Assembly (NCBI GenBank): GCA_021413845.1
Contig: JAIOPP010000084.1
Coordinates: 133,890 to 197,889 of the forward strand
Direction of reading: 5' to 3'
DNA: 64,000 bases
Source of the DNA: Planctomycetia bacterium
GTDB taxonomy: Bacteria > Planctomycetota > Planctomycetia > Pirellulales > PNKZ01
In this document: positions 23,327 through 25,987 of the stretch, piece after piece
Position numbering within the stretch: position 1 is the first letter of the stretch
Layout: every line of letters starts with the position of its first letter
Position numbers and translations under genes: made by a program
The notes under the pieces: generated by a model
Seen by the model: the letters and a program-made list of their open reading frames with translations, nothing else
The model's database searches: none
What the model was told of the DNA's origin: nothing

Positions 23327-23818
23327 ATGTCCGTCAATGAATTGTGGTTCACGGCGATCGTCGTGGCACTCGCGGCTTGCGTCGTCGGAGTGACGGTATG
23401 GCGGCGCCGGCCGACGCGCGCCATGCGCGACGCGCAGAGCTTCGAGCTTTTGCGCCGCAGCTTTCATCGCGAGCGCGAACGGGTCGAAGCGAAATTCGTC
23501 GAGCTCGCCTCGGCGAGCGGCAAGCCGCGCGGACTCCGCTGGAAAGACTGCGATTTCGAGGACGGCGTCGCTTATGCACGCGATCGCAAGAGCGGCGAGC
23601 TCTGCGCCTTCGTCGCCGTCACGGTTGCTTTCGAGGCGATCGAAGGGGGGGGCATGGAGGAGGTCGAAGCGGTGAGCAATCTCCGCGCTGCCACGGCCGT
23701 GTTCCGTCACAAAGAGCACCATTGGTCGACAGACGGGCGAGTGATCTTCAACTTGAAGCCGGTCCAAGCGATCGCTCACTTCCAGGATAGTCTGGTGCTC
23801 GTCGGCGAAGAGGCTTAG
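23327..23818 (+). CDS. Small membrane-anchored protein of unknown function
   Basis: 163 residues with an N-terminal span (WFTAIVVALAACVVGVTVW, about 7-25) followed by RRRPTR (Cin/Cout topology predicted by the positive-inside rule) and a soluble domain of about 130 residues. The soluble part contains a helical ERERVEAKF segment and then a beta-rich stretch (GLRWKDCDFEDGVAYARDRKSG). The start is well supported by GGAG about 10 bp upstream. No family was recognised and it appears monocistronic. Confidence 0.75.
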   Translation: MSVNELWFTAIVVALAACVVGVTVWRRRPTRAMRDAQSFELLRRSFHRERERVEAKFVELASASGKPRGLRWKDCDFEDGVAYARDRKSGELCAFVAVTVAFEAIEGGGMEEVEAVSNLRAATAVFRHKEHHWSTDGRVIFNLKPVQAIAHFQDSLVLVGEEA

Positions 23819-24405
23819 GCCCGCCTCGTCGACGCTCGTCATCGCGCATTCCGACCGGCCTCCTCGTTTGCGCACGTGTTGCAAACGCTTCGCCATGCGC
23901 ATTCGGCTGCCGACGAGTTCTTTACGCAACACGATCTCGCGCCCTGGACGGAAGCCTTGGGGAGTTGCTTTCACCGTGCCTCGATCGATGCAGGCACACA
24001 CAAGCGGCGTCGCAGGCATGTCGGATCGACCGCCTGTAACGACACGACCGTCTTTAACGGACGATCTCGACGTTCATCGATTGCCGAGAAGTCCGATCGG
24101 TCGGGTTCGATTGCGACGATCGTAACGGTGGCGCCGGCCAAGTAGCGGGCCGCAGAATCGTCGGCGATGTCTTAAACCGCATGCGCGGTGCGATGCTCCT
24201 TCATCGTTAAAGAGAGCACGCGCGGTAACGTTTGCAGAGCTTACCTGCGCGATACCTCCGGTATCGCTTGAACAACCGCATCATTGCTCGCAGTGCTTGA
24301 GATTTTCCAAGCTTCTCGTCGATGAGCATCTTGCCCACGACGCCTAAGCGTCAAGCCCTTATTAACCCGTTCCATTCCTGTTTCTTGTGTGGGAGTTCGA
24401 GTACC
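23819..24405. other. Long intergenic region with one small hairpin
   Basis: Nearly 590 bp with no protein-like ORF on either strand; overlapping ORFs here are Arg/Ser-rich and lack ribosome sites. A perfect 8-bp stem with 3-nt loop (GCGATACC TCC GGTATCGC) is at 24249-24267, about 140 bp before the next gene. It could be part of a leader or a protein-binding palindrome. Confidence 0.4.
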
Positions 24406-25026
24406 ATGCGTTCCATCGTTAGTGCCTTTGTTGCCGTCTGTTTGTTGGCTATCGGCGCGTCGACGTCGGAAGCCGGGCTGTGCAAGAAGTCGTGCTGTCC
24501 GAAGCCGACCTGCTGCAAGCCGAAGTGCTGCCCGAAGCCGAAGTGCTGCCCGAAAGTGAAATGCTGCAAGCCTAAGTGCTGCAAACCGAAGTGCTGCCCG
24601 AAGCCGAAGTGCTGCAAGCCAAAGTGCTGCAAGCCGAAGTGCTCGTTGTTCTCGAAGTCGTGCTGCAAGAAGAGCTGCTGCAAGAAGCCGACCTGCTGCC
24701 CAGCCCCGGCTCCTTGCTGTGCCAAGAAGTCGTGCTGCAAGGCTTCGAAGTGCTGCGCTAAGAAGTGCTGCAAGCCGAAGTGCAAGAAGAGCCGTTGCTG
24801 CAAGAAGTCTTGCAAGAAGAGCTGCTGCTCGGCTCCTAGCTGTGCCGCTCCGACCTGTGCCGAACCAGCTTGCGGCGTAGCTGCTCCCGTTGCTCCGGCT
24901 GTGAAGCCTGCCGCTCCGGCCGTGAAGCCGGCTGCTCCGAGCGTTGCTCCTTCGGACGTCAAGCCTGCCGCCCCGAAGCCGATGACGCCACCGGCCCCGA
25001 AGGCCGACAAAGCCGCGAAGATCTAA
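24406..25026 (+). CDS. Secreted Cys/Lys-rich repeat protein
   Basis: 206 residues: a signal peptide (MRSIVSAFVAVCLLAIGASTSEA) followed by about 120 residues made almost wholly of CCKPKCC / CCPKPK / CCKKSCC units, then a Pro/Ala/Lys-rich tail (PAAPAVKPAAP). The mature part has about 43 cysteines, mostly in pairs, and very many lysines. The DNA shows a matching irregular TGCTGCAAGCCGAAG-type repeat (about 24480-24840). GGGAG precedes the ATG and a strong terminator follows. Possible roles are a disulfide-linked cell-wall protein, metal binding or polyanion binding; none is shown. No known family could be assigned. Confidence 0.85.
   Translation: MRSIVSAFVAVCLLAIGASTSEAGLCKKSCCPKPTCCKPKCCPKPKCCPKVKCCKPKCCKPKCCPKPKCCKPKCCKPKCSLFSKSCCKKSCCKKPTCCPAPAPCCAKKSCCKASKCCAKKCCKPKCKKSRCCKKSCKKSCCSAPSCAAPTCAEPACGVAAPVAPAVKPAAPAVKPAAPSVAPSDVKPAAPKPMTPPAPKADKAAKI
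24480..24840 (+). repeat. Irregular short tandem repeat inside the Cys-rich gene
   Basis: Imperfect units of about 12-18 nt (TGCTGCAAGCCGAAG and variants) run head to tail and encode the CCKPK-type motif. All keep the reading frame, so it is a coding repeat prone to expansion or contraction by slippage. Confidence 0.8.
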
Positions 25027-25065
25027 CTCGCTGATTCCTAGCGAATCACGAACGCACTCAAAGCA

Positions 25066-25112
25066 ACAGGCCGGGCCGAGGTTAACCACACCTCGGTCCG
25101 GCTCTGTTTTTT
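25066..25112 (+). terminator. Intrinsic terminator of the Cys-rich gene
   Basis: ACAGGCCGGGCCGAGGT and its near-perfect complement ACCTCGGTCCGGCTCTGT form a long GC-rich stem with a short loop (TAACCAC), followed by TTTTTT. It begins 40 bp after the stop codon. Confidence 0.85.
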
Positions 25113-25210
25113 GGTGTTTGAATCAAGAGCGAACCGGAGACCTTACGAAATAGTAAGCATGCAGTCGAAGTTCGATTGCCGCTTCGCACCTTGATCGACC
25201 TGCACTTGAA

Positions 25211-25834
25211 ATGACTTCTTTGCTTCCCGCTTATTGCACTTCGTTGTTGAATCGTTGTTCCGACTTCGGTTGGGAATCGTGGTTACGAGTTCAGACGACG
25301 CGCAGCGCCCCGAGTCCGCATCGCGATGCGCATCGCTACGGTTACCTTGCGTTCCACACCTACTTTTCCATCTTCGACCATCTGGCTCTGACCGCAAACG
25401 ATACGGTCGTCGATCTCGGTTGCGGCAAGGGGCGTGTCGTCTGCGTAGCGGCGCAATATCGGATTCGTGAGGCGATCGGAGTCGAGATCGACTCCATGCT
25501 CGCCGCGCAAGCCGTGTCGAACGCCGAGCGCATGCGCCGACGCCGTTCGCCGCTAAGGATCGTGTGCGAATCGGCGACGGCGTTCGATTATTCGACGACG
25601 ACCGTGATCGTGATGTTTCATCCTTTCGGCAGCGACACCATGAACGAGGTTCTCGATCGGCTGCACGATTCGCTCGCTCGAAATCCGCGGGTGGTGCGCA
25701 TCGTTTATGCGAATCCCGAGTATTGCTCGGTACTCACCGCGCGCAGTTGGCTCAAGCTCGAAGCCGGCTGGAGCCCGACCGCGTGGGGGCGTGTGAAGTT
25801 TCCGATCCATTTCTATCGCACCATCGTCACATAG
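25211..25834 (+). CDS. Class I SAM-dependent methyltransferase
   Basis: 207 residues. The SAM-binding motif I is DTVVDLGCGKGRV (about residues 64-76) and motif II is GVEIDSMLA. An N-terminal helical segment (HRYGYLAFHTYFSIFDHL) precedes the fold. The motif IV position (VIVMFHPFG) is unusual and lacks the NPPY of nucleic-acid methylases, so a small-molecule or protein substrate is more likely. It stands alone before the tRNA-Arg gene. Confidence 0.85.
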   Translation: MTSLLPAYCTSLLNRCSDFGWESWLRVQTTRSAPSPHRDAHRYGYLAFHTYFSIFDHLALTANDTVVDLGCGKGRVVCVAAQYRIREAIGVEIDSMLAAQAVSNAERMRRRRSPLRIVCESATAFDYSTTTVIVMFHPFGSDTMNEVLDRLHDSLARNPRVVRIVYANPEYCSVLTARSWLKLEAGWSPTAWGRVKFPIHFYRTIVT

Positions 25835-25913: not shown

Positions 25914-25987
25914 GCCCTCGTAGCTCAGTTGTATAGAGCACGGATTTCCTAAATCCGGGGTCGCCGGTTAGAGTCCGGCCGGGGGTA
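25914..25987 (+). tRNA. tRNA-Arg(CCU) with altered elbow pair
   Basis: 74 nt with acceptor stem GCCCTCG/CGGGGGT (G1:U72 and U5:G68 wobbles), D-stem GCTC/GAGC, anticodon arm CGGAT TTCCTAA ATCCG (anticodon CCT), a 5-nt variable loop and T-stem GCCGG/CCGGC, discriminator A, no encoded CCA. The D-loop reads AGTTGTATA instead of the common AGTTGGATA, and the T-loop TTAGAGT instead of TTCGAGT. Thus G19 is U and C56 is A, which would keep a Watson-Crick tertiary pair. All stems are intact, so this looks functional rather than decayed. Confidence 0.88.

Follow-up and report, generated by a model that had tools for sequence, protein, structure and literature searches.

What is the role of a bacterial protein, predicted to be exported, in which cysteines make up 32% of the repeat domain? 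The question is raised by a gene located on the forward strand of a 64,000-nucleotide stretch of a Planctomycetia genome (the window), which a sequence-only reading had described as a real gene for a secreted, cysteine-rich protein with its own ribosome site and a strong terminator. The coding sequence (24406 to 25026; all features given below are on the + strand) is translated into a cysteine-pair repeat protein of 206 residues and is kept in the three congeners G001, G002 and G003. The initial MRS is common to all four species, which speaks for the start at 24406. A further in-frame ATG lies upstream, at 24322; in G002 an insertion comes after it, and in G003 it lies out of frame. The sequence GGGAG at 24391 to 24395, 10 nucleotides 5′ of the ATG, reads as a ribosome binding site. 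It is found at about the same distance in 3/3 congeners, and [A/G]GGAG precedes most members of the wider family described below. Alignment of the upstream DNA from the four congeneric species delimits a region from 24265 to 24405, probably promoter and leader, with the conserved pieces CTTGAAC.., GCTT.AGATTT, GA.GATGA.CA..TTGCC and ..TCCTGTTTC.TGT. The promoter scan of 23800 to 25300 found no sigma-70 consensus, and only the tRNAs of the window exceeded the threshold when the leader of the gene was searched against Rfam.

Downstream of the stop codon, a stem-loop followed by a T tract (25069 to 25103) has the features of an intrinsic terminator. The stem comprises 14 pairs, and the 76-nucleotide fold around it reaches −41.4 kcal/mol (z −7.5). 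A stem with T's also follows the stop codon, with a differing stem sequence, in both congeners in which the 3′ end is present. The assignment relies on the fold energy and on the conserved position, and not on the pattern scan, which alone was not above chance (1 found versus 2.2 expected from shuffled sequence). Taken at the level of sequence signals, the gene is likely to be transcribed independently, and the ribosome site and terminator claimed beforehand are both borne out.

The gene occupies the same locus in all four genomes of the genus examined, with a shared start and signal peptide. The three full-length copies encode 43, 49 and 50 mature cysteines with varying repeat numbers, the fourth copy being cut by a contig end and excluded from these counts. 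Within the signal-peptide codons, synonymous and replacement changes are about equally frequent, in small numbers. Three upstream genes, encoding two MsbA-like ABC exporters and a 163-residue protein, also precede the gene in the congeners as far as the contigs reach. The 163-residue protein (23327 to 23818), just upstream in all four species, has an N-terminal membrane segment and belongs to no family. In NCBIfam, the ABC pair best matched exporters of the MsbA-like and similar types, in each case with a score short of the cut-off, and a role of this pair as metal-thiol exporter was rejected. On the other side, the downstream genes of the window, including RmlC and a methyltransferase, do not adjoin the gene in the congeners. 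Among them, a small protein of DOT1/methyltransferase fold (25211 to 25834) lies between the cysteine gene and a tRNA (25914 to 25987; anticodon CCT by eye). A similar tRNA is found directly 3′ of the gene in G001.

The protein is divided into three parts. Residues 1 to 23 (MRSIVSAFVAVCLLAIGASTSEA; 24406 to 24474) read as a signal peptide with predicted cleavage after SEA, and the same site, SEA followed by A or G, is present in the congeners. The repeat domain (residues 24 to 157; 24475 to 24876) contains 43 cysteines, 38 lysines and 20 prolines in 134 residues, and accounts for all but one of the 44 cysteines of the full chain. The remainder (residues 158 to 206; 24877 to 25023) is a cysteine-free Ala/Pro/Lys tail, recognized by its composition and resembled by the tails of G001 and G002. 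The protein contains the repeats CCKPK (six copies), CCPKPK (two) and KSCC (five) and a single SLFSK spacer. The PAAPAVK tail is as the earlier reading had described it, and so is its estimate of about 43 mature cysteines mostly in pairs: we count 18 CC doublets, 7 single cysteines and no run of three or more. None of 20,000 shuffles of the domain attained 18 doublets; the means were 6.5 for doublets and 2.9 for longer runs. The gaps between cysteine runs are of three or four residues in 22 of 24 cases (11 of each), the two others being of five and six. CxC and CxxC, the spacings associated with metallothioneins and zinc knuckles, are both absent, while about 13 of each are expected and the minimum in 5,000 shuffles was 3 to 5. 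The spacing is therefore ordered, beyond mere richness in cysteine. The mature chain carries 46 Lys and Arg against 3 Asp and Glu, a charge of about +43; His and Tyr are lacking, and the domain has no aromatic residue save one Phe. AlphaFold returned no fold (mean pLDDT 45, pTM 0.14, from an alignment of only five sequences). Such a pLDDT is expected for a disordered chain, but equally for a five-row alignment, and the model is consistent with a mature protein that is probably intrinsically disordered. As a background, the median cysteine content of host proteins is 1.0% in a rough gene set of 740 kb, from which the codon-scoring caller dropped the cysteine-repeat genes themselves; the sole gene above 5% in this set encodes a YTV protein (13.6%).

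Database searches gave the repeat no bacterial name. The window protein had no match in NCBIfam at E≤1, and none in PHROGs or the PDB; twelve family members searched against NCBIfam yielded no name either, with two weak matches of one member each (E 0.31 and 0.86). In Pfam (E≤1), only keratin high-sulfur profiles were hit by the window protein, all below cut-off: 15.7 bits against a cut-off of 27 for PF13885, and 11.3 against 28.7 for PF01500. The nearest profile, Keratin_B2_2, gave E 0.014 for the window protein and 1.5e-17 for the best of the twelve members, nine of which matched at E up to 1. As a detector of the family this profile was unsuitable: it matched 16 of 199 genomes of the class and none of 14 controls, but missed the host genome. 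Apart from this below-cut-off likeness to keratin profiles, no metallothionein and no named structural family was matched, and neither refutation foreseen by the sequence-only reading came about. Keratin-associated proteins are proteins of mammalian hair, bound through disulfides to keratin filaments. They form a disulfide-linked matrix there and contain repeats such as QTSCCQPT and CEPTC (PMC8143586), which resemble the CCEPTCC of the family. Dense cysteines, short CC repeats with proline and a repeat number that varies among relatives are common to both. The window protein, however, is bacterial, has a Sec signal peptide, and carries Lys in place of Gln, Ser, Thr or Arg. The likeness is probably convergent.

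The protein belongs to a wider family. Profile A1, built from the congeners and one relative, matched 55 of 397 genomes of the order at E≤1e-5; its scores on the window protein and the congeners (E 3.1e-55 and 2.1e-61) are those of sequences from which it was built, as is the 103 bits of the window gene against profile A2, of which it is part. A wider profile had matches in 94 of the 398 class genomes, most of them of the same order, with weaker finds in the rest of the class; such low-complexity searches are likely both to miss members and to group some proteins by composition. All 14 matches in a sample of 392 genomes from across the phylum fell inside the class. The matched loci have a common plan: a signal peptide, CC modules (CCEPxCC, CCEPACC, CCAPEPTCC, CCxPxxCC), basic spacers such as CGLFxxLKxRCC, and sometimes an Ala/Pro tail. 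Two close congeners, like most of the wider members, have basic spacers of the type LF/LL.R.K alternating with the CC modules. The members counted have 34 to 50 mature cysteines, a varying number of modules, and CC gaps of 3 to 5 residues; the window protein, with its signal peptide followed by many CC pairs at such gaps, is built in the same way. The congeners are similarly basic. In relatives from other families, these modules hold Glu and the overall charge is close to neutral. Two members in another family of the class, f22 (L100/L106 and L107), look like genuine short versions. One match (G015) was rejected, since inspection of the DNA showed a Gly/Gln/Arg-rich gene read in the wrong frame.

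The host genome itself contains at least two further members of this style. One, at C148:16960-17397 (L027-L056), represents a sister sub-family whose own signal peptide (MNRALVFGIAIFFAVVGIALVGGEK) is strongly conserved, found in 30 of 40 relatives. Several leaders of this sub-family contain a CCGTC...GACGG inverted repeat and GGTACCTGTTT before GGAGGA, and a conserved tail of the FRxVSFRR type closes many of its distant members; Rfam searches of the paralog leaders gave only three sub-threshold chance matches. The other, at C6:44919-45326 (L102), is a secreted cysteine-rich protein with CAAPSCAAPSC and CGLFSGLRGLLNRGCC modules and a Pro-rich tail.

The sequence-only reading had placed the gene against the background of cysteine-rich planctomycete walls. 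Such proteins are documented, and those published are the YTV proteins (PMC8567305, PMC10632474), which occur in cell-wall preparations (PMC8567305). Like them, the CC-repeat proteins are secreted, cysteine-rich, repetitive and restricted to planctomycetes. The window repeat, however, consists of CC pairs with Lys and Pro and not of YTVCKPVYETHTKNIC; the window protein has no PF07639 match at E≤1 in Pfam, no YTV motif and no Tyr, so that it was ruled out as a YTV protein. Genuine YTV matches are present on three contigs of the host genome (C36, C109 and C160), the largest being a 757-residue protein with 103 cysteines in YTVCKPVYETHTKNIC repeats at C36:43409-45682 (L103). The claim of an unrecognized repeat type is right in that Pfam and NCBIfam hold no curated bacterial name for it, but the repeat is not unique, as it recurs across the class. 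Judged from sequence, the CC-repeat family is a second family of predicted secreted, cysteine-rich planctomycete proteins, distinct from YTV and lacking a curated bacterial name in these two databases. The observation made beforehand is confirmed, and its interpretation is partly supported.

We then considered the wall and disulfide machinery of the host. Neither the transpeptidase PF00905 nor FtsW/RodA (PF01098) had a match in the host genome, which is 99.6% complete; both are present in 10 of 14 control genomes. This agrees with the reported absence of peptidoglycan genes from most Planctomycetales (PMC8567305). In the same genome, no match was obtained for DsbA (PF01323) or VKOR (PF07884). 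Exported proteins with 1 to 10 cysteines showed no bias toward even numbers (45 even versus 47 odd in the rough 740-kb set). A dedicated disulfide-forming pathway is therefore not evident from DsbA, VKOR and the parity of cysteines, and cross-linking would need another oxidase or spontaneous oxidation. Cysteine-rich envelope proteins cross-linked by disulfides are known in Chlamydia as OmcA and OmcB (PMC6752827). These are exported proteins of the same PVC superphylum, but no sequence relation was seen in Pfam, where only keratin profiles matched. Chlamydia possesses a DsbA/DsbB pair, in contrast to the host with no PF01323 match.

Taken together, these data favor, with a probability of about 0.58, a structural protein of the cell envelope or of the extracellular matrix that is exported, intrinsically disordered and networked by disulfides in the manner of keratin-associated proteins. 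The signal peptide would direct export through the Sec pathway. The CC pairs, three to four residues apart with Pro and Lys in between, could then form disulfides between repeats and between chains, giving an insoluble and flexible network as the ultra-high-sulfur keratin-associated proteins do in hair, and the Lys-rich repeats may let this network adhere to acidic partners, for example exopolysaccharide, LPS or the Glu-bearing cysteine proteins of sister lineages. This structural reading is favored because the ordered CC spacing with proline most resembles keratin-associated proteins and because PF00905 and PF01098 are missing. A wall location of the window protein is plausible. Conservation of the cysteine scaffold while the charge between the pairs shifts would fit a matrix with lineage-specific partners. 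Against the structural reading, not all genomes of the order yielded a family member (the 55 of 397 genomes come from a narrow profile and a lossy low-complexity search), and its main weakness is the proposed disulfide cross-linking, given the missing DsbA and VKOR and the lack of an even-cysteine bias.

The main rival is a metallothionein-like protein, extracellular or periplasmic, whose thiolates would sequester soft metals (Cu, Zn, Cd, Hg). High cysteine content, small size and Lys beside Cys are shared with the bacterial metallothioneins SmtA and PmtA, the near lack of aromatics points the same way, and thiols might remain reduced where no DsbA or VKOR pathway is evident. There is also a precedent for a surface location, as PmtA reportedly lies at the surface of the Pseudomonas aeruginosa cell (PMC11237414). 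This rival keeps an appreciable share because the disulfide step is indirect, DsbA and VKOR are absent and no even-cysteine bias exists. It is nevertheless unlikely: bacterial metallothioneins commonly use His (PMC10612145), of which the window protein has none. CxC and CxxC are missing where composition predicts many, the chain has a signal peptide, no metallothionein profile matched in Pfam or NCBIfam at E≤1, and the conserved neighbors are the MsbA-type exporters and the 163-residue protein, among which nothing points to a metal regulator.

If instead the charge were the essential property, the protein would be a cationic adhesive binding acidic capsule or exopolysaccharide, with a secondary role for its cysteines. 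The charge of the mature chain, the signal peptide and the proximity of MsbA-type genes and of the sugar-nucleotide gene RmlC in the window are consistent with this, but the downstream neighbors are not retained in the congeners, and sister members of near neutral or mildly acidic charge keep Cys rather than Lys, which makes it quite unlikely. The very high density of thiols outside the cytoplasm could also serve at the cell surface as a redox buffer, or be sacrificed to scavenge oxidants; such a function does not need regular spacing or a modular architecture, no redox partner gene adjoins, and we consider it highly improbable. Finally, tandem DNA repeats within the gene and long antisense ORFs overlapping it could point to a repeat-expansion product or a functionless chance ORF, the true gene being antisense or none. 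This is scarcely credible given the locus and signal peptide kept in four species, the terminator that comes after the stop codon in each of the three species whose 3′ end is available, and the plan that recurs across the order; for the genus, it is already refuted by the conservation of the gene in relatives.

The structural reading bears on a long-standing question, namely what holds planctomycete cells together where the genes of peptidoglycan synthesis are missing. Early chemical studies, as cited in PMC8567305, pointed to walls made of protein. The YTV proteins are the cysteine-rich candidates described so far, and the CC-repeat family, widespread in the order, with up to a third of residues as cysteine and as many as 50 cysteines counted per mature chain, adds concrete and testable ones. 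A more far-reaching proposal, which we regard as doubtful, is that Planctomycetia devoid of the peptidoglycan-building core build a second, YTV-independent wall of disordered CC-repeat proteins. It would be a bacterial counterpart of the hair keratin matrix, cross-linked extracellularly without classical DsbA or VKOR, in which module number and charge (Lys-rich here, Glu-bearing in sister lineages) would tune the mechanics. More modestly, the family may contribute to a cell wall made of protein in organisms that lack the usual peptidoglycan machinery. These bacterial proteins may also be a case of convergence with hair matrix proteins.
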